NCBI RefSeq assembly: GCF_003172875.1
Contig: NZ_QGKM01000075.1
Coordinates: 1 to 64,000, forward strand
Length of the DNA: 64,000 nucleotides
Origin: Leucothrix pacifica
Lineage (GTDB): Bacteria > Pseudomonadota > Gammaproteobacteria > Thiotrichales > Thiotrichaceae
Direction of reading: 5' to 3'
This document shows positions 1,525-33,226 of the stretch, one piece after another. The stretch's first letter is position 1, and every line of letters starts with the position of its first letter. The position numbers and the translations under genes are program-made. Under the pieces are notes generated by a model. It was not told where the DNA came from. It was given only the letters and a program-made list of their open reading frames with translations, and ran no database searches.

Positions 1525-2853
1525 CTACAAATACCAATCATACTCCCGCGCCGAAATCGCATCCTCAAACGCATCAATCTCACTACGTTTCTGCGCACAA
1601 TAAACCGGAATAAAATCCTCCCCAAGATACTCTTTCAGCACCTCCGAAGTCTCAGTCAACCGCAACGCCGCCCGCAAATCAGTAGGCAATCCAGAAGACT
1701 CAACTGACAATTCCTCAGTAGCAGGCCCGGGCTGTAAAGCTTGCTTCAATCCCCAATGAATCGACGCCATCAATGACGCCAACGCCAGATAAGGATTAGC
1801 ATCCGCACCCCCAACCCGATATTCAATGCGCTGGTTTTTGGCATCTGATGAAGGAATACGCGCAGCAACCGAGCGGTTTTCATAACCCCAAGTCGGACTG
1901 AGTGGCACATTATTGTTTGGTGCTAAGCGTCGGAATGCATTGAGATTGGGTGCGAAGATCGATAGGGATTCCGGCATCACCTCAAGCACACCACCCACAG
2001 CATGCAGTAACTTGCCTTCCAGCTCCTCATTAAACAGATTATTACCGTCTTTATCGTACAAACTAGTATGAAGGTGTAGCCCGTTTCCGGCATGATCCAA
2101 ATACGGCTTGGCCATAAAACTTGCCTGAAAACCATGCTTCATCGCGACGCCTTTGACGATGCGTTTGAACATCACGCATTGGTCCGCAGCTGCCATCACA
2201 TCGGCATTGTGTAGTAGGTTAATTTCATATTGCCCTAAGCCGACTTCAGCTGAAATTGGCCCAACCGCAACGTCTTGCTCGATACAGGTTCGGGTGATAT
2301 CACTCAGGCAGTCACCAAAGTCCGCCAAGCGATCCATATTCAGAACGGCATAGTTGTCACGTTGCCCGGAGCGTGGCCCAATGGCAGGCTGAACTAAACC
2401 GTCATCGTTGCGCTGCTGGTCGAATAAATAAAACTCCAACTCATAAGCCACCACGGGGAAGATTCCATCATCTTCAAAGCGTTTCAGCACACGTTTCAGA
2501 ATATTGCGTGGCTCCCAAAACGGCGAATCACTTTGCCCCTGAGCGTAGCGAACCATGACTTGCGCGCGTGGCTCGGATTCCCATGAAACACGTTTGATGG
2601 AACCGGGAATTAGTTCGATATCTGCATCCGGATCACCGTCTTCAATGCCATGACCCAGCGCATCAATCGCATGTCCCTGAACTGACATCAGCGGCATGCC
2701 GCGAGGGAATTTAAGTCCTTTTTCCGCGAGCTTTTCCAGGTCATCAATGGCATATCGCTTGCCATAAAAGTTACCCGGTATATCCAGAATTATTAAATCA
2801 ACTTCATTGATATCAGGGTTGTTGGCTTTGAATTGTTCTATTTCTTGTTTCAT
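1525..2853 (-). CDS. puuA: glutamine synthetase family protein, gamma-glutamylpolyamine synthetase-like
   Basis: This 442-residue protein has the length of the GlnA/PuuA family that ligates glutamate to putrescine or another amine with ATP, the first step of the gamma-glutamylated polyamine pathway. Visible family motifs are the metal-binding YELEFYLF (about 137-144), SAEVGLGQYEINLLH (201-215), the ATP-site GNGLHLHTSL (257-266), WGYENRSVAARIP, and RIEYRVGGADANPYLALA towards the C-terminus. It lacks the adenylylation-tyrosine context of true GlnA. It lies downstream of potFGHI on the same strand and on the other side of the transporter from a second synthetase (7138-8508), so the two probably differ in amine preference. 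Substrate assignment is inference. Confidence 0.85.
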   Translation of the reverse strand: MKQEIEQFKANNPDINEVDLIILDIPGNFYGKRYAIDDLEKLAEKGLKFPRGMPLMSVQGHAIDALGHGIEDGDPDADIELIPGSIKRVSWESEPRAQVMVRYAQGQSDSPFWEPRNILKRVLKRFEDDGIFPVVAYELEFYLFDQQRNDDGLVQPAIGPRSGQRDNYAVLNMDRLADFGDCLSDITRTCIEQDVAVGPISAEVGLGQYEINLLHNADVMAAADQCVMFKRIVKGVAMKHGFQASFMAKPYLDHAGNGLHLHTSLYDKDGNNLFNEELEGKLLHAVGGVLEVMPESLSIFAPNLNAFRRLAPNNNVPLSPTWGYENRSVAARIPSSDAKNQRIEYRVGGADANPYLALASLMASIHWGLKQALQPGPATEELSVESSGLPTDLRAALRLTETSEVLKEYLGEDFIPVYCAQKRSEIDAFEDAISAREYDWYL

Positions 2854-2885
2854 AGTGAAGCGACGCTGCTCGTATAGTATTTTGG

Positions 2886-2920
2886 CCTGCCAGCAAACAC
2901 CGTATGTTTGCTGTGACAGG
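2886..2920. terminator. stem-loop between potI and the downstream synthetase gene
   Basis: CAGCAAACA (2891-2899) and TGTTTGCTG (2905-2913) form a perfect 9-bp stem with a 5-nt loop, and CCTG/CAGG (2886-2889, 2917-2920) can extend it. No U-run follows on the minus strand, so it may be an mRNA-stabilising or partially terminating hairpin at the end of the pot operon rather than a strong intrinsic terminator. Confidence 0.5.
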
Positions 2921-2953
2921 AATTACATTATTGACCGATGATACCGAAGGCAG

Positions 2954-3763
2954 CTATCCATCACCGGAGCGTGCGCGCACTTGTTCGGCGCGCTTAGCGA
3001 TGAGGGAGGCAGCGATAACCCCGACGGATACCGCAACAATCAGGAGTGTAGATAAGGCATTTATTTCAGGTTTCAAGCCCAGGCGAACCTGACTGTAAAT
3101 CTTCATGGGTAGCGTGGTTGCACCGGGGCCTGAGGTGAAGGATGCAATCACCAAATCATCCAGAGAAAGCGTGAAAGCCAATAGCCATGCAGCAACTACA
3201 GCCGGCATGATAATGGGTAACGTCACCTGCATAAAGGCATTGAAAGGGTTGCAGCCTAAGTCGAGCGCGGCTTCTTCTAAGGAGCGGTCAAAGCTGATTA
3301 AACGCGAGGAAACAACCACCGCGACATAACACATAGAGAAGGTCACGTGCGCAATAGTGATGGTCCAGAATCCACGATCCCAGCCGATAGCCACAAACAG
3401 CAGCAGCAACGACAAACCGGTAATCACTTCAGGCATCACCAGTGGTGAATAGACCATGCCGGAGAACAACATACGCCCACGAAATTTCCCGGCACGCGTC
3501 AATACCAGCGCTGCCAGTGTACCCAGCACGGTGGCGATAGTGGCGCTTAATACTGCGACTTTGAACGTCACCCAAGCCGCATTCATAAACGACTCGTTTT
3601 GGAATAGGGCGGTATACCAGCGCGTGGAAAAGCCACCCCAAACCGTCACCAATTTAGAGTCGTTAAAGCTGTAAATAATTAGCAGCATAATCGGCAGATA
3701 CAAAAACACAAAGCCGAAGGTCAGGCTGGTTGCATTAAACCAAGTGAATCGTTTTTGGTTCAT
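2954..3763 (-). CDS. potI: spermidine/putrescine ABC transporter permease PotI
   Basis: Inner-membrane permease of a polyamine importer, 269 residues from the ATG at 3761-3763 (MNQKRFTWFN). That ATG overlaps the potH stop by 4 bp (ATGA), so I prefer it to the upstream start, which would add 34 unsupported residues inside potH. Several hydrophobic segments are visible, beginning FGFVFLYLPIMLLIIYSF. The conserved cytoplasmic EAA loop, LEEAALDLGCNPFNAFMQVTLPIIMP, is the contact site for the ATPase. Translational coupling with PotH fits the heterodimeric channel. The alternative name for this position is SpuH/YdcV-type. Confidence 0.9.
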   Translation of the reverse strand: MNQKRFTWFNATSLTFGFVFLYLPIMLLIIYSFNDSKLVTVWGGFSTRWYTALFQNESFMNAAWVTFKVAVLSATIATVLGTLAALVLTRAGKFRGRMLFSGMVYSPLVMPEVITGLSLLLLFVAIGWDRGFWTITIAHVTFSMCYVAVVVSSRLISFDRSLEEAALDLGCNPFNAFMQVTLPIIMPAVVAAWLLAFTLSLDDLVIASFTSGPGATTLPMKIYSQVRLGLKPEINALSTLLIVAVSVGVIAASLIAKRAEQVRARSGDG

Positions 3764-4662
3764 GAGGCCGCCTCCTGTGCTTTTTCCTGCTGGCGTTGGA
3801 ATAGCAAAATAGGGATCACCAGTAACATCAACAAGACAATCGCAACCGCAGACGCCACTGGCCAATCGCGGTTGGAGAAGAATTCACCCCACAGCGTTTT
3901 ACCGATCATTAGTGTTTCAGAGCCACCTAATAAGTCAGGAATCACAAACTCACCCATGGCCGGAATAAACACCAAAAAACAACCAGCCACGATACCGGGT
4001 AATGACAGCGGGAAGGTGACTTGCCAGAAGGCACCGAGGCGTGTCGTTCCAAGGTCCAGTGCGGCCTCGATCAATGAGTCATCCATTTTTTCCAGCGCAG
4101 CATAAAGCGGTAACACCATAAACGGCAGATAGGAATACACAATGCCGATGTAAACTGCAAAGTTGGTATTGATCATGGCTAATGGTGTATCAATCACACC
4201 TAGCCACAACAGGAAGTGATTGAGAAAGCCTTCGGTTTTTAATATTCCAATCCATGAATACACACGAATCAGAAAGCTGGTCCAGAAGGGCAGAATAATC
4301 ATCAGAACTAACAGTCCGCGCCACTTTTCCGGTGAGCGTGCCAATGCATAGGCAATCGGATAGCCCAGCAGTAGTGTAAACAAGGTTGAGACCAAAGCAA
4401 TTTGCAGGCTGGATAGATAAGACAACCAGTAAATATTGTCTTCCAATAGCCAAATGAAGTTCTCAAGGTCAAAGGCCTGCCATAGATTCACCATACCCTG
4501 AATACCAGCTTCCGGCGTATAGTTTGGCGTATACGGTGGCATGGCGGTTGCCATATCGGATAGTGATATTTTCAGCACAATGAAAAATGGCATCAGGAAG
4601 AATACCAATAGCCAAATCATTGGAATGCCGATTAGTAGGAAACGACGCCAGTTAATAGTCAC
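3760..4662 (-). CDS. potH: spermidine/putrescine ABC transporter permease PotH
   Basis: 300-residue inner-membrane permease, partner of PotI. It has an N-terminal helix (FLLIGIPMIWLLVFFLMPFF), further hydrophobic segments, and the EAA-loop motif LIEAALDLGTTRLGAFWQV before the last helices. The start is GTG at 4660-4662, preceded by a GGAG Shine-Dalgarno that overlaps the end of potG; the gap to potG is 3 bp. The tight spacing of G-H-I indicates one transcription unit. The length agrees with PotH/SpuG (about 290-317 residues). Confidence 0.9.
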   Translation of the reverse strand: MTINWRRFLLIGIPMIWLLVFFLMPFFIVLKISLSDMATAMPPYTPNYTPEAGIQGMVNLWQAFDLENFIWLLEDNIYWLSYLSSLQIALVSTLFTLLLGYPIAYALARSPEKWRGLLVLMIILPFWTSFLIRVYSWIGILKTEGFLNHFLLWLGVIDTPLAMINTNFAVYIGIVYSYLPFMVLPLYAALEKMDDSLIEAALDLGTTRLGAFWQVTFPLSLPGIVAGCFLVFIPAMGEFVIPDLLGGSETLMIGKTLWGEFFSNRDWPVASAVAIVLLMLLVIPILLFQRQQEKAQEAAS

Positions 4663-4665
4663 TGA

Positions 4666-5805
4666 TTACTCCGTCAACGCGATGGCTGCGGTGTCTGTCC
4701 AGGAAAGCCAGACATTATCTTCCCAGGTAATGGCGCGATTGCTTAAACGACGTTGGTTGGTCATTTGCGCTTTGATCAGATCGCCGTTACTGAGTCTGAC
4801 GTGATACGTTGAAATACTGCCGGAGTAAGCGATGTCATCGACGATGCCTTGCAGTTTATTGCGTCGGTCTTCGGGCGGTTCTTTGCTGACAGCGATTTTT
4901 TCCGGTCGAATAGCGAGCCAAGCGGTGGAGCTAATTGCCAAAGGCTTGTCGCTGTGCAGGATAAAATCCTGACCTGCGGCTGACTGTAAAGTGATTTCAT
5001 GATCTTGCTGAGCGGTGACAGTGCCTTCTATGAAATTCACATCACCGATAAAGTCGGAGACATAGCGGTTTTTAGGTGCTTCGTAGATCATTGCTGGGGT
5101 ATCAACCTGTGCCACGATGCCTTTGTCCATAATCGCGATACGGCTGGCCACTGTCATGGCTTCTTCCTGATCATGGGTGACGATCATAAAAGTAACGCCT
5201 AGTTTTTCCTGCAGATTCATTAGCTCAAACTGAGTGCGCTCGCGAAGCTTTTTGTCCAATGCGCCGAGTGGCTCATCAAGCAGTAATAGTTTCGGGTTCT
5301 TTGCTAACGAACGTGCCAGTGCAACCCGCTGACGTTGACCGCCAGAGAGTTGGTGTGGTTTACGCTTGGCAAACTCCTGCAACTGCACCAACGTCAACAT
5401 TTCAGCAACGCGCTGGGCAATTTCGTCTTTGCTGCGACCTTCTTGCTTTAGACCAAAGCCAATGTTTTTCGCTACGCTCATGTGCGGGAACAGGGCGTAG
5501 GACTGAAACATCATATTCACCGGACGCTGATTAGGCGGGACTTTTGAAATATCCTTGCCACCAATCAGAATACGGCCTTCAGTGGCTTCTTCAAATCCTG
5601 CCAGAAGTCGTAATAGGGTTGTTTTGCCGCAGCCGGAAGGGCCGAGCAGGGCATAGAATTCCCGCTCGTAAATATCCAGCGTTAGATTATCAATTGCCGT
5701 GAAATCACCGTAGCGTTTGGTCACACCCTCAAATCGAATTAAGGGCGTTGCCGACGCATCATTCCACGGCGCAAATACATCACTGGTATTGCCAGAAGCC
5801 GCCAT
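4666..5805 (-). CDS. potG: spermidine/putrescine ABC transporter ATP-binding protein PotG
   Basis: 379-residue cytoplasmic ATPase that drives polyamine import. Walker A GPSGCGKT is at residues 55-62, the Q-loop at about 101, signature LSGGQ at 153-157, Walker B LLLLDE at 173-178 and the H-loop His at 211. A C-terminal TOBE-type regulatory domain follows (about 300-379). It starts 9 bp after potF ends and runs into potH with a 3-bp gap. The length and the C-terminal domain agree with PotG/SpuF rather than with a stand-alone ATPase. Confidence 0.93.
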   Translation of the reverse strand: MAASGNTSDVFAPWNDASATPLIRFEGVTKRYGDFTAIDNLTLDIYEREFYALLGPSGCGKTTLLRLLAGFEEATEGRILIGGKDISKVPPNQRPVNMMFQSYALFPHMSVAKNIGFGLKQEGRSKDEIAQRVAEMLTLVQLQEFAKRKPHQLSGGQRQRVALARSLAKNPKLLLLDEPLGALDKKLRERTQFELMNLQEKLGVTFMIVTHDQEEAMTVASRIAIMDKGIVAQVDTPAMIYEAPKNRYVSDFIGDVNFIEGTVTAQQDHEITLQSAAGQDFILHSDKPLAISSTAWLAIRPEKIAVSKEPPEDRRNKLQGIVDDIAYSGSISTYHVRLSNGDLIKAQMTNQRRLSNRAITWEDNVWLSWTDTAAIALTE

Positions 5806-5814
5806 GAATATGCC

Positions 5815-6927
5815 TTATTTTCCGCTCTTGATACGTGTCCAACTACGGTTTAGCAGGCGTTGTGCTTTAGGCTCTGGCGCGAGTACCGCGTACAAACCTT
5901 TCAGGGTTTCCTCATCAGGATAGACCGCATTGTCTTTAAATACTGAGTCATCCAGTAGAGGCTGCGAAGCAAGGTTTCCATTGGCATAACTCACGTAGTT
6001 ACTGGCTTTTGCAGCCACATCAGCACGCAGGATATAGTCCATAAAGGCGTAGGCTTCGTCTTTGTTTTTGCTGTCTGCCGGAATCGCCATCTGGTCAAAC
6101 CACATCTGTGCGCCTTCTTTTGGAATCACATACGCAACGGTATTGCCATTTTTTGCTTCATCAGCACGGTCACGCGCTTGCAGTACATCACCGGAGTAAC
6201 CAACCGCTACACAAATGTCGCCATTAGCCAGTGCGCCGATGTATTCAGAGGAGTGGAACTTCTGAACATGAGGACGTACTTTTGCAATTAATGCTTCAGC
6301 TTTTTCTAAGTTTTCTTTGGAGAATTCATTCGGGTTTAGCCCAAGGTAATGGAATGCTGCCGGCATAATTTCAGTCGGTGCATCCAACCAGTGAATACCG
6401 CAATCAGCCAGTTTCTCCACGATTTCTGGTTTGAATATCAGATCCCAAGAGTTGAGCGGCGCATCATCTCCCAGACGCTGTTTGACCTTTTCTTCAACAT
6501 AACCAATACCAGTGGTTCCCCACATGTAGGTGAATGAGTGCTCATTGCCCGGATCATATTCTTTAGTGCGCTCAGCGATGGTATCCCAGGCATTTTTCAG
6601 ATTGGGCAGTTTGCTTTTGTCCAGCTTGGTAAACGCACCAGCTTTGATTTGGCGGCTTATAAAGGTGGCACTGGGAACGACAACGTCATAGCCTGACGCA
6701 CCCGTTAATAGCTTGGTTTCCAGTAGCTCGTTGGTATCAAACACATCGTAATTAACCTTGATGCCGGTTTCTTTGGTGAAGTCTTCCAGCACGCTTTCAT
6801 CGATATAGTCAGACCAGTTATAAACATTGACGACTTTGTCAGCGGCATTCGCCACATTCCCTAATAAAGCGCCTGCGGCAAAGCAAAGCGAGGATACGGC
6901 AATAACCAACTTCTTTTTCATCATCAT
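5815..6927 (-). CDS. potF: periplasmic putrescine/polyamine-binding protein PotF
   Basis: 370-residue substrate-binding protein of the PotD/PotF family. A Sec signal peptide is clear (MMMKKKLVIAV, hydrophobic core, cleavage after NVANA at about residue 28). The mature start has the family's VVNVYNWSDYID motif, in which Trp and Asp contact the polyamine; GDICVAVGYSGDVLQA and MWFDQMAIPADS are further family segments. It is the first gene of potFGHI and its promoter faces the synthetase gene at 7138 across a 210-bp region with two identical palindromes. Which polyamine it prefers cannot be read from sequence alone. Confidence 0.92.
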   Translation of the reverse strand: MMMKKKLVIAVSSLCFAAGALLGNVANAADKVVNVYNWSDYIDESVLEDFTKETGIKVNYDVFDTNELLETKLLTGASGYDVVVPSATFISRQIKAGAFTKLDKSKLPNLKNAWDTIAERTKEYDPGNEHSFTYMWGTTGIGYVEEKVKQRLGDDAPLNSWDLIFKPEIVEKLADCGIHWLDAPTEIMPAAFHYLGLNPNEFSKENLEKAEALIAKVRPHVQKFHSSEYIGALANGDICVAVGYSGDVLQARDRADEAKNGNTVAYVIPKEGAQMWFDQMAIPADSKNKDEAYAFMDYILRADVAAKASNYVSYANGNLASQPLLDDSVFKDNAVYPDEETLKGLYAVLAPEPKAQRLLNRSWTRIKSGK

Positions 6928-7007
6928 GTGAGGGGCTCCTGAATCATTTATGTTTGAGGTCTGCGTTGCGTGGATAATCTTGCATAAAGTGGTGGGTAAG
7001 TCAATTT

Positions 7008-7019
7008 ATGTGATCACAT
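7008..7019. promoter_or_regulatory. 12-bp palindromic operator candidate, copy 1
   Basis: ATGTGATCACAT is a perfect palindrome and lies 81 bp upstream of potF, in the divergent region between potF and the synthetase gene. An identical copy is at 7104-7115. The half-site resembles the TGTGA of Crp sites, but without the 6-bp spacer; GntR-type regulators also use compact palindromes of this size. The regulator is not identified in the window. Confidence 0.6.
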
Positions 7020-7103
7020 TACAATATGGCCTGAGTGTTTTACATACTTATTAGCGTGCGTGTTTTGTTTGTTCGCTTGACTTTTAGAAGTCGCCTCACC
7101 AAA

Positions 7104-7115
7104 ATGTGATCACAT
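7104..7115. promoter_or_regulatory. 12-bp palindromic operator candidate, copy 2
   Basis: Exact second copy of ATGTGATCACAT, 96 bp from copy 1 and 22 bp upstream of the ATG at 7138. Its place next to that start, with copy 1 near potF, suggests that one regulator represses or activates both divergent polyamine units. The position just ahead of the start would favour repression of the rightward unit. Confidence 0.6.
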
Positions 7116-7137
7116 AATTTTAATTAACGGTTGTCTC

Positions 7138-8508
7138 ATGGAATACGCACCAATAGTGTCTGCACCTGACTCGGTAGAAGAGCTAAAAAAACTTGTGGTT
7201 AGTCACAAAATCGAGGAGGTGGAATGCACCATTGCAGACATTCATGGTGTGGCGCGCGGCAAACTGATGCCAGCGAGTAAGTTCGTTGCCTTGAATCCGA
7301 CGTTTTTGCCTTACAGTATCTTCTTCCAAAGCATCACTGGTGATTACTTAGAGTTTGACTCTGAAGCCTATATGACAGAAGTGGATATTCAGTTAGTGCC
7401 AGATTTGACCACGGTCAGGACTTTGCCTTGGGCGCGGTCTCCCAGCTTAATGGTGATCCATGACCTGATGTTTCAGGACGGTCGTCCGGTAGAAAGTGGC
7501 CCGCGTAATGTATTGAAGCGCGTACTCAAATTATATGAGGACCGAAACTGGAAGCCGGTGGTTGCGCCGGAAATAGAGTTTTATCTGACCGAACGAAATA
7601 CTGATCCGGATTTACCGTTGCAGCCACCGATAGGGCGCTCGGGCCGTCAAAGTGTCGGGCGTCAGTCATTTTCCATGATGGCGATTGATGAGTACGAGCC
7701 GATCATTGAAGACATCTATAAATTCGCAGAAGTCATGGGCTTGGAAATCGATACCCTGACTCAGGAGGGGGGGCCTGCTCAGCTTGAAGTGAACATGGCA
7801 CATGGTGATGCTCTGGATCTGGCGGATCAGGTATTCGTTTTTAAGCGCCTGATTCGTGAAGCGGCGATGCGACATGATTGCTATGCCACGTTTATGGCTA
7901 AGCCGATGAAGAACCATCCCGGCAGTGCCATGCATATTCACCAGAGTGTGGTGGATATCAGCACCGGTCAGAATATTTTTAGTAATCAGGATGGCAGTGC
8001 CAGTGATTTGTTTCACTACTTTATTGGTGGACAACAAAAATATTTGGGAGCCTCGACCTGCTTGTTGGCTCCTTATGTGAATTCTTATCGTCGCCTGATG
8101 CCGGGTGATTCCGCACCGATTAATCTGGAGTGGTCTAAGGATAATCGCTCCGCTGGTCTGCGTGTGCCTAACAGCGGTCCGAACTCGCGCCGTGTGGAGA
8201 ATCGCATCGCAGGCATGGATACCAATCCTTATTTGGCCTTAGCCAGCAGTCTGGCAACTGGCTATTTAGGGATGATGAATAAAATTAAATGTCAGGAAGA
8301 ATTCAAAGGCGATGCCCACGAAGCTGACTTTGGTTTACCGCGTGGATTATTGGAATCACTGATTGTTCTCGATGAAGCGCCGGAATTTCAGGCCATTCTC
8401 GGACAAGAGTTTTGTGATTTGTACAAAGCACTGAAACAGCACGAATTTAATGAATACATGATGGTAGTGAGTCCGTGGGAGCGTGAACACTTGCTACTGA
8501 CCGTTTAG
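7138..8508 (+). CDS. glutamine synthetase family protein, gamma-glutamylpolyamine synthetase-like (second copy)
   Basis: 456 residues, second GlnA/PuuA-type ligase of the locus. The N-terminal half has the family pattern VECTIADIHGVARGK (about 27-41); metal and ATP motifs are APEIEFYLT (about 141-149), GGPAQLEVNMAHGDA, PGSAMHIHQSV and RRVENRIAGMDTNPYLALA. It is clearly diverged from the 1525-2853 paralogue. It heads a rightward unit with the aminotransferase 30 bp downstream, matching the synthetase-aminotransferase pairing (spuB-spuC style) known from pseudomonads. No strong Shine-Dalgarno precedes the ATG. Probable role: gamma-glutamylation of putrescine, spermidine or another amine in the cytoplasm. 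Confidence 0.85.
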   Translation: MEYAPIVSAPDSVEELKKLVVSHKIEEVECTIADIHGVARGKLMPASKFVALNPTFLPYSIFFQSITGDYLEFDSEAYMTEVDIQLVPDLTTVRTLPWARSPSLMVIHDLMFQDGRPVESGPRNVLKRVLKLYEDRNWKPVVAPEIEFYLTERNTDPDLPLQPPIGRSGRQSVGRQSFSMMAIDEYEPIIEDIYKFAEVMGLEIDTLTQEGGPAQLEVNMAHGDALDLADQVFVFKRLIREAAMRHDCYATFMAKPMKNHPGSAMHIHQSVVDISTGQNIFSNQDGSASDLFHYFIGGQQKYLGASTCLLAPYVNSYRRLMPGDSAPINLEWSKDNRSAGLRVPNSGPNSRRVENRIAGMDTNPYLALASSLATGYLGMMNKIKCQEEFKGDAHEADFGLPRGLLESLIVLDEAPEFQAILGQEFCDLYKALKQHEFNEYMMVVSPWEREHLLLTV

Positions 8509-25551: not shown

Positions 25552-26037
25552 CTAGATTGGTTTCCCACAATAAGGACAATTCACCAACTGATGCTCTGCT
25601 TGCCTACTCGCTGCAATTTGACTGCCACAAGAGCCGCAACTTTCAATCACTTTAAGCGCTGCCAATTTATCCCGACGCATATACCGTTCGGTGTCCGTGT
25701 CGAATACTAAATCCAACGATTGATTCTGAATCATGGTCAGTACTTTTTTGCGGGCGACCTGTTCATCCAAATCAATCGCGTTGGCAAGCTCTGCCATCGA
25801 GAAGCTATCCCGACTACGAATAAATCCCTGAAGTTGTTGAACGAGCGCGCTTTGCTTGCGGTTGGCGCGTCGGCAGAAGATCCACCCTGGAATGCCAGCG
25901 AGGGCTGCAAACATAATAAACCCAAGTGTTGCATCGCTTGAGTCCGAATCATTGTCGAATAAAGTCAATAACGCTCCAACGACGAAGAATAGGGCGAGAC
26001 CAAAAAGGCCTTTTCCGATAGTGCTGTAACAATGCAT
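25552..26037 (-). CDS. small membrane protein with winged-helix-like and zinc-ribbon segments
   Basis: 161 residues from the ATG at 26035-26037; a TTG 18 bp upstream is a possible longer start. Two hydrophobic helices (about 7-26 and 40-59) are followed by RRANRKQSALVQQ, a helical domain with SMAELANAIDLDEQVARKKVLTMI that resembles a PCI/winged helix, and a C-terminal zinc ribbon (CGSCG near 139 and CPYCGK at the end; CxxC pairs). It follows the large WD40-STAND ATPase after 47 bp on the same strand and so may belong to that system, either as a membrane partner or as an adaptor. Function unknown. Confidence 0.6.
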   Translation of the reverse strand: MHCYSTIGKGLFGLALFFVVGALLTLFDNDSDSSDATLGFIMFAALAGIPGWIFCRRANRKQSALVQQLQGFIRSRDSFSMAELANAIDLDEQVARKKVLTMIQNQSLDLVFDTDTERYMRRDKLAALKVIESCGSCGSQIAASRQAEHQLVNCPYCGKPI

Positions 26038-26084
26038 GGATGACTCGCTATACAAGGATGATTACTGCCATTTATTGTAGCGTA

Positions 26085-29000
26085 CTATTGCTGAACGATA
26101 CGTTTCAACTCCGCCTGCAACTTCAGTTCCGGCGAATCTTCAGCAATATAATCCACAAATAACGGCACACGATAGAACCACCGCCCCTCCTTGCGCCCCA
26201 GCACAAACGAAAGTTCTAAGCGTGATAAGGTGCGATCTAGCTCCAATGTATCGACTGCAATATCATGTTCTTTGGCCTGCGCCAGCAGCTCACCTGTATT
26301 GAATGATGGCATGCCAATTGTGCTGTAAACCACCATGCGCTCATAGGCTTGTTCAAAATCTGTTTCACCGACGACCCAACCACTTAAGGCACGGCGTACT
26401 TCATCACTTTTAAGAGCAAAGGCAACGTCTCCGGCTTCAATCACGCGTTGCTGTGGTGGCAGGTTACGCACGACATGCTGACAGACGATGGCAATCAGGT
26501 TGGCGCGTTGGCCGCAGGAATCGACAATATGTTCAACCAAGGTTTCATTAGCATAAGACAGGTTCATGACAGCATGTTGATACAACTGCCAGAAACCCGC
26601 CAGAATAAAGGTGCAATTTCCTTCTTCACTGAGGCGACGGAATACATTGAGAATGGCGTAATCGTGTGATTTTTCCTGCGCGATAAAACGATCCGCTTCA
26701 TCAATCAGGAACACATAACGTTGACCACTTTCGCGGATGCGCTCATCTAGCTGTGTAGCGAGTACTTCAGCATCGTCTGTGCGCTCCAGCTTTAACAGTG
26801 AAGCTAAGCGTGGCACTAACACCTCGCTGGATAACGTGAGGTAAACACACTCGACTTGTGGGTTGTCGGCATAACGGCGTTCGATCGCTTTAAGTAGTGT
26901 GGACTTACCGACCTGACGACCACCCACCATGAGGTAATTGGCTGGATCACGGTTAATGATTTGTGAAATCAGCTCGCGGCGACCAAAGAAAACGGATTCA
27001 TTATTCACGCCACCACCGATACGGTAAGGGGAGATTTGTTGCAGTGACAATTGCCCCGCAAGGATTTCAGCGAGGGCAATTTCTGCATCCGGTGCGAGTA
27101 ATAAGCGAGTGATTTCAGCGCCTTGTGGGGCAACCCATTTATTACTGGTGTCGCGGGTGGTGTTGTAAAGCTTGCGCTGGTAGGCGCTGTCATTGCCGAT
27201 GATCAGAGTGATGCGGGAATGCGCTTCGGCGTTGTGTTTAAGGCTGGAAAATACATCTTCAGCAGCCGTTTGTTCAGGAAAACAGAGCAGGATGCGGTCA
27301 ATATTCAGCGGGAACCCTTCTGCTAGTGTCAGCTGAGAAAGTGCCATGCTGGGTGCGCTGGCTTGGGTTTCATCGATCGGTTTAGCGTCTGCTCCAAGGC
27401 GACTGGCAATAAGTTGGGTTTTCTGTTGTGTGTCAAGCGTTGCAAAAGGGGTAGCGGCTTTCAGCGTGTTACTGCTGACATCAGCGCCGGACAATACTTT
27501 TTCCAAACGATTGGTCTGTGTGAGTCTGCGTTTTGCTTCGTCTAATAGTTCAACAGGCGTTGTTAGCAACGCTGTCGGTGTTTCACTAAGCTCAAGCACC
27601 ATCGGGTGCTGATAGCGCTTTTTATAAAACACATAAGTTGCAACCAGTAAGCTTAGGATCAACAGACCTAAATATGCCCACCACATAGAATTTTTTATCT
27701 GAATCGTCTGATTATTAAAATTCCACATAACAAACGGCAGGCCAGCGGTTCGGACTTGTAAATCAATGTTGCTATCCTTGGCCAGTTTAAAGCCTTCGGG
27801 TAATACAAAGGCTCGTTCAATGGTTCCTCCATTCGCTGGAATGGCATCTTTGGCACTTTGTTCATCCAGACTTTCAATACCGGGAATGCGTAAATTAAAC
27901 CGTGTATCAGAGACAGGAAGCTCTCCCGTATTTTTGATGGAGACCGTCAACGTATTATCCAGTAATTCAGCGCGGGCTAACTCTAGTTTTGGCATTACAA
28001 CTTTTACGGGGACTGACACTTTGTTAGAGTTGGTTTGCTCCGGCGCTACAACTTCTATCAGCAATGGACCTTCTGGTGGTGCTACCCACTCAACGCCATC
28101 TGCGGATTGCTTGGTGAGAGTATGGGGGATATACGCAGCTACCTTTACGGTCAGTTCAGCACGTTGGCCAGCTTCTAGGCGTTGAATAGTTGGCGTGTTG
28201 TACAGGCTAAAACCATTTCCCTGAATCAATCTGGGACGTAACCACAATAGAGGTTGTTGACTGGTATTGTGAACCTGCAGTGTGAAACTGGTTCCCTGAC
28301 TCTCTGTTAAGCGAACAGTTTCTCCCTGATAAGCGACAGACAGTGAGTTTGCCGGAACTGCCTGAATAGATTTAGGAACAGCCGGAACCAGCTTTCCATC
28401 TTTTTTGATTAACAGCAGACTGCCATCATCGCTACGCTGAAAGTTGCCTTTATTGTCATAACTCAGCCAATTACCGTTTGCTCCACCAATCATGGTTTTT
28501 ATTGGTGGTGCAGTGGATTTTTCCCAAAGTCGAATGGTGCCATCAGAAGATCCGGACGCGATGACCTTGCCATCGGGGCTGTAGGCGATGGTAAGAACCA
28601 GGCCTGAGTGCCCCTTCAGCGTGTTAATGGTCTCCCCGGATTGTGCATTCCAGAGTCGAATGGTGTTGTCATCAGATCCGGACGCGATGACCTTGCTATC
28701 GGGGCTGTAGGCGATGGTATTAACCGGGCGAGAGTGTCCCTTTAGCGTGTTAATGGTCTCCCCAGATTGAGCATTCCACAGTCGAATGGTGTTGTCTTGA
28801 GATCCGGACGCGATGATCTTGCCATCGGGGCTGAAGGCGATGGTAGTAACCCAGTTGGAGTGTCCCTTCAGCGTGTTAATGGTCTCGCCGGATAGTGCAT
28901 TCCAAAGTCGAATGGTTTTGTCAAAAGATCCGGACGCGATGATCTTGCCATCGGGGCTGTAGATGATGGTATTAACCGGGCGAGAGTGTCCCTTTAGCGT

Positions 29001-29279
29001 GTTAATGGTCTCCCCAGATTGAGCATTCCACAGTCGAATGGTGTTGTCTTGAGATCCGGACGCGATGATCTTGCCATCGGGGCTGAAGGCGATGGTAGTA
29101 ACCCCGCTGGGGTGTCCCTTCAGCATGTTAATGGTCTCGCCGGATAGTGCATTCCAAAGTCGAATGGTGTTGCTTAAAGATGTTGACGCGATGACCTTGC
29201 CATCGGGGCTATAGGCGATGGTTCGAATCCAGTTAGGGTGTCCCTTCAGCGTGTTAATGGTTTTCCCCAGATTGAGCAT
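26085..29279 (-). pseudogene. C-terminal part of a split membrane WD40-STAND ATPase
   Basis: 1,064 codons in a frame different from the upstream piece. Residues about 1-255 are WD40 units 8-13, then two beta-rich domains (about 300-520, including a CARDB-like stretch ELARAELLDNTLTVSIKNTG), a membrane helix (about 530-553, WWAYLGLLILSLLVATYVFY), a cytoplasmic linker and a STAND/AAA_16 ATPase. The latter has the FFGRRELI entry motif, Walker A GGRQVGKST (about 785-800), Walker B YVFLIDEAD (about 860) and a C-terminal winged-helix-like tail. The join with the upstream piece is broken by one extra base at the run 29261-29268. Had the frame continued, this and 29254-30273 would be one protein of about 1,410 residues. 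It may still be translated from internal ATG 29277-29279, but without signal peptide. Could be a sequencing error or a programmed +1 shift. Confidence 0.75.
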
Positions 29280-30120
29280 TCCAAAGTCGAATGGTGTGGT
29301 CTCGAGATCCGGACGCGATGACCTTGCTATCGGGGCTGTAGGCGATGGTTCGAATCGAGTTAGAGTGTCCCTTCAGCGTGTTAATGGTCTCCCCAGATTG
29401 AGCATTCCAAAGTCGAATGGTGTTGTCATTAGATCCGGACGCGATGACCTTGCCATCGGGGCTGTAGGTGATGGATCGTACTGAGTCAGAGTGTCCCATC
29501 AGCGTGTTAATGGTCTCGCCGGATAGTGCATTCCAAAGTCGAATGGTGTTGTCATCAGATCCGGACGCGATGACCTTGCCATCGGGGCTGAAGGCGATGG
29601 TACTAACCCAAGGAGAGTGTCCTTTCAGCGTGTTAATGGTCTGTCCGGATTGAGCATTCCAAAGTTGAATGGTGTTGTCAGAAGATGCAGATGCGATGAC
29701 CTTGCCATTGGGGCTGTAGGTGATGGTATTAACCGGGCGAGAGTGTCCCTTTAGCGTGTTAATGGTCTCTCCAGATTGAGCATTCCACAGTCGAATGGTG
29801 TTGTCTTGAGATCCGGACGCGATGATCTTGCCATCGGGGCTGAAGGCGATGGTAGTAACCCAGTTGGAGTGTCCCTTCAGCGTGTTAATGGTCTCGCCGG
29901 ATAGTGCATTCCAAAGTCGAATGGTTTTGTCTCGAGATCCGGACGCGATGACCTTGCCATCGGGGCTGAAGGCGATGGTATTAACCCAGCGAGAGTGTCC
30001 CTTCAGCATGTTAATGGTCTGTCCGGATTGAGCATTCCAAAGTTGAATGGTGTTGTCGGAATGTGCGGACGCGATGACCTTACCATCAGGGCTGTAAGCA
30101 ATAGCTTGATAAGGTGATTG
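28500..30120 (-). repeat. 126-bp tandem repeat array encoding 13 WD40 units
   Basis: Thirteen repeats of 42 codons, each ending TINTLKGH or close and carrying IASGS.D.TIRLWNA.SGE, lie in a row across both halves of the split gene. Units 3 and 4 are nearly identical to 9-10 and 11-12, so there is a higher-order pattern and probable recent recombination or gene conversion. Thirteen to fourteen units would make two seven-bladed propellers. Confidence 0.85.
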
Positions 30121-30273
30121 ACTAACAATCTCCGTGTTGGGAAAGTCTTTCAAATTTTCGCTATGAGTGGTTAATTTTGGTAATGCCGTCTCTGCGAAAA
30201 TTGACGTGCTGATACCCCAGGTGCTTATTACCAAACTGAGCACTAATAAGTATCGCCATAAGTGTCCTAGCAT
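29254..30273 (-). pseudogene. N-terminal part of a split membrane WD40-STAND ATPase
   Basis: 339 residues from the ATG at 30271-30273 (MLGHLWRYLL), which overlaps the stop of the upstream TIR gene by 7 bp. A signal peptide or anchor (LLVLSLVISTWGISTSIFAETA, about residues 10-31, cut into hydrophobic stretch and Ala end) precedes WD40 units 1-7. The frame ends prematurely after NAQSGENH because GGGGAAAACC replaces the GGGGAGACC present in the other units; without the extra base unit 7 continues directly into units 8-13 of the 26085-29279 piece. Topology implied: propellers outside the cytoplasmic membrane, ATPase inside. Broken as it stands. Confidence 0.75.
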
Positions 30274-31676
30274 TGCAGCAACTCCAGTCCTGTTTGTTGA
30301 ACAAACCCACAACGCCAAACAAACTTTCCATCACAGTCCGTAATTAAATTCTGCCAGTACAGTCGTCTAATCAACGTATCCTGAGGCCACGCGTCATAAC
30401 GCCCTAGTATTTGCTTTTGCAGTAAATCACACAGTAGTTGCGCATCTGTCTCATTTCTAAATCGCGTAAATAACTGACTCGGTAGTGCGCTATTTTTGAT
30501 ATTGGCTTGCCAGTCGGGATCACCGCGCTTCAGACACTGTAAGGCACTTTCCAATAAACGAGGGTGTTTACCAGTGAAGGTAAGTAGTGATTCCAGTGTG
30601 TCGTCATCCAGCGATAAGTCGGCGTAACGCTTCAAATAAATGTCTTTTAAATCTTGCAGACTGACATCCGGCAGGCGCATTTCATCAAGATCATTAAAAA
30701 AGGAGTGTTTGCCTAGTTTGTATTTTGCCGCAGCGAGTTGTTCACTGCCCATCACAATGAGTTTGAGTGAATAGGGGTAGTTACTGAGTAAACCGCGTAA
30801 CTCTCCCGCAAGTTCGCCGCGAGTATCTTCTGCACCGTTTTCAAAACCTGTAATGAGCAGTACGAACTCTTCACCCTGATCAAGTTTTTCACGCAAAGCA
30901 TCCGCCCATTCCCAGCTTTCACTCACGCCTTCATCCAGCCCACATTGCTTGGCTAATCGCCCAAAGTAAGCCGCGCTGTCAACACGCACACTGGCGGGTG
31001 GAAACAGGTGTAGGAAGGTGGCGTTTGGATAGCCTTGTTGCAGGGATTGTTTGAGTGCCTGAATGTAGTGTTGGGTATTGGTATCGGCCTGCGCCAATAT
31101 CATCAGTGGCATGCTGGCGTCTAAGCGATCCCAAACGTCCTTGATAAAGGTGTGTTGGGCATTAATAGAGGTTTGTTCTGGTGACGCGGTGTCCATTTCA
31201 GGGAGTGCTAAATCGCCTGAAAAATAAGGCTTAGCACCGGGTGCTTGTTTATCTAGCCCGCAAAGTAGTTTTTGAAAAGCGGTACGGTATTTTTCTTCGC
31301 TACTGTCTTCAAAATCAACCGCTTGGATATTGCTGAGAAACGGAAAATCCGGAAACTCCCCTAATACAATCGGTATCCAGTGAAAGTCTTCACGTTGTTT
31401 GGCGAGGTTGAACATGTATTCATATTCTTCCTGCACCCAGCCAGACTCAGCTGCTTCGGGTGTCGCGATCAGTAGCGCGCATCGTGAGTGTTTCATTGCG
31501 CTAAAAATCTTGCGGGTAAAGTTGTCGCCAGCGGTGAGCTCCCATGCGTCGAGGAACACTTTTTAGCCTTGTGCGGTGAGATTATGTGCCAGTGTTTCTA
31601 CCCACGGGCGACGCGTCGTTCGATAACTGATAAAGATATCGTAGTGTTCGGGCTGCGCGGGGGCGTTTGTGGGCAT
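30267..31676 (-). pseudogene. TIR-domain / degenerate NTPase gene with an in-frame stop
   Basis: Reading from the ATG at 31674-31676 (470 codons) the frame starts MPTNAPAQPEHYDIFISYRT, the classic TIR opening, and hits TAA at 31563-31565 exactly where TIR domains have an aromatic residue (G-*-KVFLDAWEL; a single change from TAT or TAC). It continues with LIATPEAAESGWVQEEYEYMF, where Glu follows Trp as in NAD-cleaving TIRs, and WIPIVLGEFPDFPFL. The rest (about residues 140-470) looks like an NTPase fold without a recognisable Walker A and with a C-terminal winged-helix end. A GTG at 31557-31559 could start a truncated product lacking the first TIR strand. It overlaps the WD40 gene and is the first gene of that unit. 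Confidence 0.75.
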
Positions 31677-31920: not shown

Positions 31921-32505
31921 AACCACCAGCTAAAGCAGGTGGGTTAGCATAAAGGACTGAAAGTCCGGATACGGGTCAAGTAGACCCGTCTAATCTTCCG
32001 TTTTAAAATTATCGTCTCCTTTAGGCTCGAAGTGATGCTCAAGATACTCCTTAATCATTTCTTCCGTTAAATCACCAGAGGTTACACAAAAATAGCCTCG
32101 AGCCCAAAAGTGCCGTCCCCAAAAGCGCCTCTTTAAGTCGGGGAAGGACTCAAATAGTTTGGCTGAGCTCCGTCCTTTAATTCGCCGCATGATTTCACTG
32201 GGAGCCATTGTGGGTGGTGCTGAAACGAGTAAGTGAACATGATCCTTACTCATAACCCCTTTCAGAATTTCTATCTCAAAGACCTCGCATGTCTGACGCA
32301 CTAATTCACGAACTCTGATTCCCACATCACCTGTAAGTACTTGGTAACGATATTTTGTTACAAAAACAAAATGATACTGTATTTTGAAAACTGTGTGGCT
32401 GCCATACCGATACGCCATCTTAGCCTCTCCGCTGTAAACTTAGCTGAAAGGAAAAGTATCGCAGATAAATCTGACCGTCTAAAGACGGTGGTTTTAACCT
32501 TGAAG
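31921..32505 (-). mobile_element. IS200/IS605-family insertion sequence
   Basis: A single Y1-transposase gene is flanked by imperfect hairpins instead of inverted repeats, as in this family. One end has AACCACC...GGTGGGTT (31921-31945), plus GGACT/AGTCC (31954-31966) and the ACGGGTC/GACCCGT stem (31971-31989) next to the transposase stop. The other end has ACCGTCT-AA-AGACGGT (32474-32489) followed by GGTTTTAACC (32490-32499). There is no tnpB. The boundaries are approximate because the family leaves no target duplication. It lies between the TIR gene region and higA. Confidence 0.8.
31990..32418 (-). CDS. tnpA: IS200/IS605 family transposase TnpA
   Basis: 142 residues, the usual length. HUH motif is in SKDHVHLLVSAPP (His-x-His, about residues 60-64), the catalytic Tyr is in TEEMIKEYLEHHFEP (about 127), and the N-terminal VFKIQYHFVFVTKYRYQVLTG is diagnostic. 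The enzyme would move the element as single-stranded DNA. The frame is intact, so the element could still be active. The stop is followed at once by a 7-bp-stem hairpin of the IS end. Confidence 0.94.
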   Translation of the reverse strand: MAYRYGSHTVFKIQYHFVFVTKYRYQVLTGDVGIRVRELVRQTCEVFEIEILKGVMSKDHVHLLVSAPPTMAPSEIMRRIKGRSSAKLFESFPDLKRRFWGRHFWARGYFCVTSGDLTEEMIKEYLEHHFEPKGDDNFKTED

Positions 32506-32907
32506 AGGACTAATAAAAACAGCCGGTGAAACCTGAAACCGTCCAGACAACTTTTTAATCTGCTCAACATTTAGCGATCGCTTGCCAGATAGCACCTCAG
32601 AAACAACACCTTGGCTGCCCACTTCAGAAAGTTCTGATTGTTTTATATGATGACTTTCCATCAAAAATTTAAGCGCATCAATGCCTGTAGACTGTGGGAC
32701 TAAGCCTTGCTGATTTTCATAGGCAGAAACTAAATCACCCATACGCTCAGCAAGCCCTGCAAGTGGATGATTTTCATCTGCTCCACCAGCGTCAAGCACT
32801 GAGTCAAGGTCATCAACTAGCTTGTTATATTCCTTCTCATTACTAGGCACAGTGAGTACAGGTGCGATGTACTCCCAGTGATTCATGGCTTCTTGTATTG
32901 CACTCAT
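32494..32907 (-). CDS. higA: HigA-type antitoxin (XRE domain)
   Basis: 137 residues from the ATG at 32905-32907, with AAGGAG 8 bp upstream; the longer frame starting 18 bp earlier overlaps this signal. An N-terminal helical part is followed by an HTH with SELSEVGSQGVVSEVLSGKRSLNVEQIKKLSGRF, as in HigA/antitoxin XRE proteins that bind the toxin and the operator. It follows higB after 5 bp. The last codons (FISPLQG) run into the end of the IS200-like element, so its original C-terminus may have been replaced. A repressor role at the shared promoter is likely. Confidence 0.85.
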   Translation of the reverse strand: MSAIQEAMNHWEYIAPVLTVPSNEKEYNKLVDDLDSVLDAGGADENHPLAGLAERMGDLVSAYENQQGLVPQSTGIDALKFLMESHHIKQSELSEVGSQGVVSEVLSGKRSLNVEQIKKLSGRFQVSPAVFISPLQG

Positions 32908-32912
32908 GTGAA

Positions 32913-33200
32913 TTACTCCTTCCATTTGCCTTGGTCGTATTCGGTATGATTCAAAATGGCCCGAATGAAAACGCGTCCAGTATTGAAATGTATGGCAGCG
33001 ATCAAGCGTAATTTGTTCCCGCCAATATTGAAGACATACAGATCACCCACTTTATCTACACTGTTAAACGTGTTTTTCAGTTCAGAAAAGTTGTTGAAAT
33101 CAGCCTGATTGATAGTCTGATACCAACCTCTCAGAGCAGTAGCAACCTGAGGGTATTTCTCTTCAGCTTCGATAACGCGTTTGCGAGTGATAATATGCAT
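32913..33200 (-). CDS. higB: HigB-type mRNA interferase toxin
   Basis: 95 residues from the ATG at 33198-33200 (MHIITRKRV), the start that matches the family; an ATG 18 bp upstream lies inside the operator palindrome. It has the HigB pattern LRGWYQTINQADFNNFSELKNTF, VFNIGGNKLRLIAAIHFN and ILNHTEYDQGKWK, a RelE-like fold cleaving mRNA on ribosomes. The toxin-first order with the antitoxin 5 bp downstream is typical of higBA. Confidence 0.92.
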   Translation of the reverse strand: MHIITRKRVIEAEEKYPQVATALRGWYQTINQADFNNFSELKNTFNSVDKVGDLYVFNIGGNKLRLIAAIHFNTGRVFIRAILNHTEYDQGKWKE

Positions 33201-33226
33201 GAGATCAAAATATCTCAATATGAGAT
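33201..33226. promoter_or_regulatory. higBA operator candidate
   Basis: ATCTCA (33212-33217) and TGAGAT (33221-33226) form an inverted repeat across a 3-nt centre, and GAGAT at 33201-33205 repeats the half-site. It lies directly upstream of higB, where HigA would bind to repress the operon. The dyad is short, so the call rests on position. Confidence 0.5.

Follow-up and report, generated by a model that had tools for sequence, protein, structure and literature searches.

Locus organisation and lesions

The window, that is, the whole stretch of DNA analysed (64,000 nucleotides from Leucothrix pacifica), contains three genes packed together on the minus strand. Re-reading the open reading frames upheld the arrangement that had originally been predicted, in which gene A overlaps gene B by 7 bp and a 161-aa open reading frame lies 47 bp further on (Table 1). 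As named from their sequences, leuCD and a LysR gene flank one side and sbcB the other, with VapBC-like, HigBA-like and IS200-type genes in between. The HigBA-like pair also matched the PADLOC PD-Lambda-2 A and B models. No second copy or paralogue of gene B was found in the L. pacifica genome, and an empty-site comparison showed that the gene order around sbcB in three congeners differed from that in the window.

Table 1. Positions of the genes, domains and lesions in the window.
Feature	Position	Strand	Remarks
Gene A	30267-31676	-	ATG at 31676, stop at 30267; TIR followed by inactive STAND/NB-ARC module; premature stop inside
TIR domain of gene A	31263-31637	-	Pfam TIR_2
Premature in-frame TAA in the TIR of gene A	31563-31565	-	L010, L012, L013 and L042 read through here
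Inactive STAND/NB-ARC module of gene A	30270-31169	-	No Walker A; AF2 model of L010 A
Gene B	26085-30273	-	ATG at 30273; signal peptide, 13 WD40 units, Ig-like domains, membrane helix, STAND ATPase
WD40 array of gene B	28524-30096	-	126-bp unit, 12.5 copies, 85% matches = 13 units
Frameshift splitting gene B within the WD40 array	29254-29279 (about)	-	Two overlapping ORFs; frame unbroken in L010, L012 and L042
Ig-like beta domains of gene B	27700-28500 (approximate)	-	Between propeller and membrane
Transmembrane helix of gene B	27627-27683	-	Followed by KKRYQHP on the predicted cytoplasmic side
STAND (NB-ARC-like) ATPase of gene B	26088-27017	-	Walker A 26901-26924; Walker B 26691-26711
34-residue in-frame deletion in the B ATPase	Junction 26567	-	Relative to every full-length homologue
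Two-helix zinc-ribbon protein	25552-26055	-	161 aa from ATG 26037; adjoins gene B; judged outside the system

The original prediction had worked with repaired proteins; the stop and the frameshift are indeed present, but the copy is broken three times, and the deletion in the ATPase had been overlooked. This deletion takes out the SPxRNFGE segment, which is present in all other full-length homologues. The TAA and the frameshift could be sequence errors, whereas the 34-residue deletion is hard to explain in this way. The A/B copy in the window is decayed and probably inactive. An intact relative, L010, was used for structural modelling.

Gene A: an output domain on an inactive STAND core

A TIR domain in a separate gene with a degenerate NTPase had been proposed for gene A, and both parts were recovered. 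The match to Pfam TIR_2 had an E-value of 3.8e-15 for the downstream part and 6.2e-27 for the full domain read through the one TAA. The AF2 model of the intact A protein of locus L010 (pLDDT 75.7) comprised a TIR domain and a STAND/NB-ARC module; its TIR part matched AbTir (Z 13.8) and SARM1 (Z 13.3), indicating that the TIR-like segment does fold as TIR, a point that the original prediction had left to be checked. The STAND part matched 2qen (Z 15.8), and the best Foldseek match of the model was the plant TIR-NLR RPP1 (E 1.9e-10). Against Pfam, the gene A core gave a weak AAA_35 match below the cut-off, and a regular-expression search found no Walker A motif in any A homologue. The A-core profile still matched the B STAND domain weakly (E 4.5e-6 for L013), which is consistent with the A core being a degenerate paralogue.

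The glutamate at the WxxxE position was kept in six of the eight TIR forms (the window and five others) and replaced by K in L079 and Q in L083, and the His/Cys motifs of CHAT were present in L012 and L014. In a test for a Thoeris ThsB-type TIR, gene A scored 48.5 bits against NF058526 (ThcB4), far below the cut-off of 220, and other Thoeris TIR models matched it at the TIR level alone. These sequences and models characterise A as a predicted cytoplasmic partner, with a STAND core that lacks nucleotide-binding motifs and an exchangeable N-terminal output module.

Gene B: a predicted ectodomain, a membrane helix and an ATPase

Every part that had been predicted for gene B, from the signal peptide to the STAND ATPase, was found. 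The ATPase in the window contains GGRQVGKS and FLIDEAD, and both Walker motifs are thus kept despite the 34-residue loss. Residues 39-241 of the L010 B model were all beta in AF2, with a weak match to a HYDIN-type Ig domain in Pfam, and the AF2 model of the part of L010 B that follows the WD40 array (pLDDT 81.0) contained Ig-like beta domains and a STAND module as well as the membrane helix. The STAND module matched 2qen (Z 20.0, 307 aligned, 4.2 Å) as well as the NLR RPP1 (Z 17.4), CED-4 (Z 16.4) and Apaf-1. A Walker A motif of the GGRQxGK[ST] type was detected by regular expression in 33 of 34 B proteins, the exception being L037 with a GRRIGKT variant. In Pfam, B matched nSTAND1 and AAA_22 weakly, and nSTAND2 was absent from the matches listed for A and for B. 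Searches for sequence relatives of B in the PDB and for NCBIfam families at cut-off returned none, and PADLOC gave matches to A/B at the TIR and CHAT level alone, with no system.

Many complete B proteins have signal peptides or N-terminal helices ahead of the ectodomain, and a short basic stretch follows the membrane helix (RYRHP in many homologues). Across 31 proteins, the mean K+R count was 1.6 N-terminal and 2.6 C-terminal of the helix (p 0.018), a modest bias. The signal peptides and the basic stretch C-terminal of the helix favour the reading that the ectodomain is outside and the ATPase inside, so that the earlier placement of the repeat sensor and the ATPase on opposite sides of the membrane is supported as a predicted topology. 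The sequences and models describe B as a protein that is exported by its N-terminus and held in the membrane by a single helix; its propeller or alternative ectodomain is predicted to lie outside, and its STAND ATPase, of the active type, inside.

Linkage and distribution of the pair

Profiles covering the A core and the membrane-STAND part of B were used to count linkage. Among the B loci preceded by 3 kb or more of sequence, 24 of 26 contained gene A, in most cases right in front of B or overlapping it; A lay downstream of B in L092 and L037, and B occurred without A in L078 and L084. Intact linked pairs were found in unrelated families (L010, L012, L042, L036, L038, L039, L082, L085, L093 and L096), including a dolphin-associated MAG (L010), Thiothrix (L012), a second genus (L042) and distant high-GC genomes (L036, L038 and L039). 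Named carriers include Thiothrix and Thiolinea. Judged by these profiles, A and B are encoded together, as the original prediction required of orthologous loci, and this holds in distant relatives.

The distribution is patchy in the sample of the order Thiotrichales (10 of 63 genomes), and 23 of 42 genomes of another order were positive, with up to six matches per genome. In phylum-wide samples, A and B were each found in about 6 of 398 genomes, with 3 in common; the two samples may differ, and a chance estimate for this overlap is therefore no more than indicative. In G002 (locus L044), another genome of the genus, a WD40 ORF survives together with a short C-terminal fragment of B; in G025 there is only a C-terminal fragment. 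One family (G448 and G545) has orphan A cores that lack a B. B was not found on plasmids or sequenced phages; its presence on three IMG/VR contigs is explained by a filamentous prophage 97 bp behind it.

The zinc-ribbon gene had also been counted as part of the system. It is carried by 3 of the 63 genomes in the order and stands next to A/B in the window alone, and its homologues in the order (loci L052-L054) sit elsewhere without A/B. A role as third component was thus rejected, as the gene never accompanies the pair outside the window, and the zinc-ribbon protein is best regarded as a neighbour. Of the three-gene proposal, the linkage of A and B stands and the inclusion of the zinc ribbon does not; on this distribution, the candidate system is one of two genes, not three.

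Exchange of outputs and sensors

The N-terminal output of A varies among loci, being TIR in the window, L010, L013, L042, L079, L082 and L083, CHAT-TIR in L012, CHAT in L014, membrane helices in L091 and HTH-like in the rest. HTH-like N-termini account for about 12 of the 22-23 classified A proteins, including all of those in distant high-GC genomes; singly, these segments fell below the Pfam cut-offs, and an alignment of eight sequences found repressor HTHs in the PDB (2kpj, E 6.7e-5). The A-core tree implies five or more switches of output, and CHAT is nested within its TIR clade. As most distant relatives carry HTH-like domains rather than TIR or CHAT, some members may control transcription.

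The ectodomain of B is also exchanged. It consists of WD40 repeats in most loci and of an NHL propeller in L085, L093, L096 and L087, the last assigned because it is nearly identical to L085. L036 has a pilin-like domain instead, with PF00114 matched above the cut-off (E 1.4e-4), and L038 and L039 are its aligned relatives. The B protein of L014 lacks both ectodomain and membrane helix, and those of L077, L080 and L090 lack the ectodomain. The likeness to parts of conflict systems that had been pointed out for this locus is thus strengthened by the linkage of A and B in distant relatives and by the exchangeable output domains.

Variation within the WD40 array

In fungal HNWD proteins, WD40 positions 7, 9, 25 and 27 on the binding face are reported to be under positive selection (PMC2873952). 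Variation in the window array is concentrated at the same blade positions. Entropy at these four positions was 1.96 bits in the window array compared with 0.40 elsewhere (permutation p 1.3e-4), and 2.07 compared with 0.73 in L010 (permutation p 5.8e-4); pN/pS between repeats was 1.41 (window) and 1.18 (L010) at the HNWD codons and 0.42 and 0.43 elsewhere, all of these values coming from small sets of non-independent repeats with no unrelated WD40 array as a control. In the L012 and L042 arrays, enrichment at the HNWD positions did not reach 5% significance (p 0.06 and 0.10); the blades of these two arrays measure 40 aa, and the 42-aa register used may therefore be off.

Proposed mechanism and alternatives

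We consider the A/B pair to be probably an NLR-like receptor spanning the membrane, with a probability of roughly 0.6: it would sense a ligand on the outer side of the membrane and, by way of the paired inactive STAND protein, set off an effector in the cytoplasm. The ectodomain would bind a ligand, for example, a component of phage entry, a toxin that attacks the envelope or a surface molecule of non-kin. Binding would free the B ATPase for ATP-dependent oligomerisation, and B might then recruit A through a mixed STAND-STAND assembly, in which the crowded N-terminal modules of A would switch on the output. TIR forms would then cleave NAD, CHAT forms would act as proteases and HTH-like forms would probably control transcription; growth arrest or cell death would be the likely outcome for the TIR and CHAT forms. 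Several observations count against this explanation: no enrichment of A/B in phages, plasmids or defence islands was demonstrated, the HTH-like forms suit gene regulation as well as defence, the L012 and L042 arrays fall short of significance at the HNWD positions, the charge bias around the helix is modest, some B proteins lack an ectodomain or an A partner, and the TIR glutamate is lost in two forms.

The HTH-like forms lead to the strongest alternative, in which B senses an envelope signal as a transmembrane sensor for gene regulation or envelope stress and A is mainly an adaptor for transcription control, the TIR and CHAT forms being local offshoots or scaffolds. Activators are known among STAND proteins, MalT being one example, and the large share of HTH-like A proteins, with all distant high-GC ones among them, points in the same direction. 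However, enzymatic motifs are kept in most TIR and CHAT forms, outputs are swapped as in conflict systems and the WD40 arrays vary at recognition positions, which makes this alternative rather unlikely. Less probable still is a receptor for kin or self/non-self recognition in filamentous, surface-attached bacteria that is directed at neighbouring cells and not at phages. Thiothrix and Thiolinea, both among the carriers, are filamentous sulfur bacteria, and the patchy distribution and the decay of some copies would suit such a role, as would a pattern of WD40 variability like that of the fungal HNWD allorecognition receptors (PMC2873952), but the NHL and pilin-like ectodomains have no obvious fit. 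That the genes are chance neighbours or an assembly artefact, broken and without joint function, is very improbable: the copy in the window has three lesions and may be dead, but the intact linked pairs in unrelated families contradict this explanation.

Returning to the transmembrane NLR-like receptor, we regard the odds as even that A/B represents a wider receptor family, in which exchangeable ectodomains (hypervariable WD40 or NHL propellers and pilin-like baits) are joined by one helix to an NLR-type ATPase that would act on a separate TIR, CHAT or HTH protein through an inactive-STAND adaptor. Such a family would merge the layout of a Toll-like receptor with an NLR switch and detect attack before it enters the cytoplasm. 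To our knowledge, the bacterial NLR-like immunity that has been studied experimentally senses invaders inside the cell. If the proposal is true, bacteria with NLR machinery could sense attack at the envelope, with a variable sensor outside and a STAND switch inside, and the layout of animal Toll receptors would be combined in bacteria with the switch of plant and animal NLRs. The pair would also be a simple system for testing the role of an inactive STAND partner directly, in which the natural exchanges of sensors and outputs are ready-made experiments.

Comparison with known systems

The original prediction knew of no described system with this layout, and no description of a transmembrane or periplasmic STAND-TIR receptor of the A/B type was found in the literature searched either, most subscription journals lying outside that search; papers on conflict systems and DGRs give other layouts. 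The layout of B and A, with a repeat sensor outside coupled to a TIR inside, resembles that of Toll-like receptors, and A itself resembles the TIR-NB-ARC part of plant TIR-NLRs, as its match to RPP1 indicated. Unlike in these receptors, A is dead for nucleotide binding, the sensor and the TIR are in separate proteins and there is no LRR. EACC1 systems share two genes, a membrane-spanning component, variable effectors and multicellular carriers with A/B, but pair a small TM protein with a caspase and have no ectodomain-TM-STAND protein.

Fungal HNWD proteins likewise combine a STAND domain with near-identical WD40 repeats that vary at the same four blade positions, but are single intracellular eukaryotic proteins with the WD40 repeats C-terminal to the STAND domain (PMC2873952, PMC1805685). 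Avs/bNACHT proteins also have a STAND switch with an effector and a variable sensor, but carry all three in one polypeptide (PMC10907252), whereas here the effector is in A and the active STAND and the sensor are in B. Some STAND systems with DGRs have periplasmic lectin sensors, but their pairing differs from that of A/B (PMC10907252). The ternary iSTAND MoxR-vWA systems contain an inactive STAND with an N-terminal TIR or caspase-like module, and a subset is membrane-associated; in contrast, they require MoxR and vWA genes, and their sensor is no propeller joined to an active STAND (Kaur et al. 2020, PMC7159879). Neither gene was seen as a shared neighbour among the ORFs read around A/B.

The closest described parallel is the two-gene pair of nSTAND2, a predicted counter-invader system in which two STAND NTPase genes are adjacent and one has eroded NTP-binding motifs and a variable effector; the text consulted gives GT4 or HEPN as the commonest effectors and mentions neither a signal peptide nor an ectodomain or membrane helix (Burroughs and Aravind 2021, PMC8195603). 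In A/B, too, an active STAND gene lies next to an inactive one, and it is the latter that carries the effector.

Filamentous prophages behind B genes

In L039 and in the three IMG/VR contigs L100, L101 and L102, a filamentous-phage-like prophage starts approximately 97 bp behind a gene B (the STAND ATPase partner of gene A) of the type with a pilin-like ectodomain. The Rep protein of these prophages corresponded to phrog_2969, phrog_1242 was also matched, and the coat protein in L102 was phrog_6548. In the related genome G607, the corresponding site behind B carried no filamentous-phage-like prophage. The B gene of L102 has a deletion of ca. 950 bp that includes the ectodomain and membrane helix. 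Because pili are frequent receptors of filamentous phages, it is conceivable that the pilin-type ectodomain could act as bait.

Variant and related loci

The coiled-coil proteins encoded between A and B in three loci resembled each other, and B lacked an ectodomain there; these proteins are possibly an alternative sensor. In two Thiothrix genomes (L012 and L013), the A-B pair occupied one common site flanked by hypD-like and hypE-like genes.

Coordinates of individual features, numbered within each locus
Locus	Position	Feature
Window	32494-33218	Toxin-antitoxin pair of HigBA-like type, hit by the A and B models of PD-Lambda-2 in PADLOC
L039	12341	Prophage behind B
L077	6881-8038	Coiled-coil protein gene, convergent
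L080	7970-9463	Coiled-coil protein gene, convergent
L090	7160-8305	Coiled-coil protein gene, convergent
L113	6809-7762	Stand-alone A-core (STAND part of A); output domain and B absent
L114	6704-7801	As L113
L052 (contig 77, window's genome)	2457-7360	TIR gene overlapping nSTAND1-like STAND gene with degenerate repeats
L040	3550-11287	WD40-membrane-STAND gene, more remote, in three-gene cluster
L041	4104-11778	As L040

The window's genome contained 22 TIR-profile matches in total. In the L041 cluster, the gene adjoining the WD40-membrane-STAND gene encodes a CHAT-NACHT-TPR protein, and clusters of the L040/L041 type may represent a sister system.
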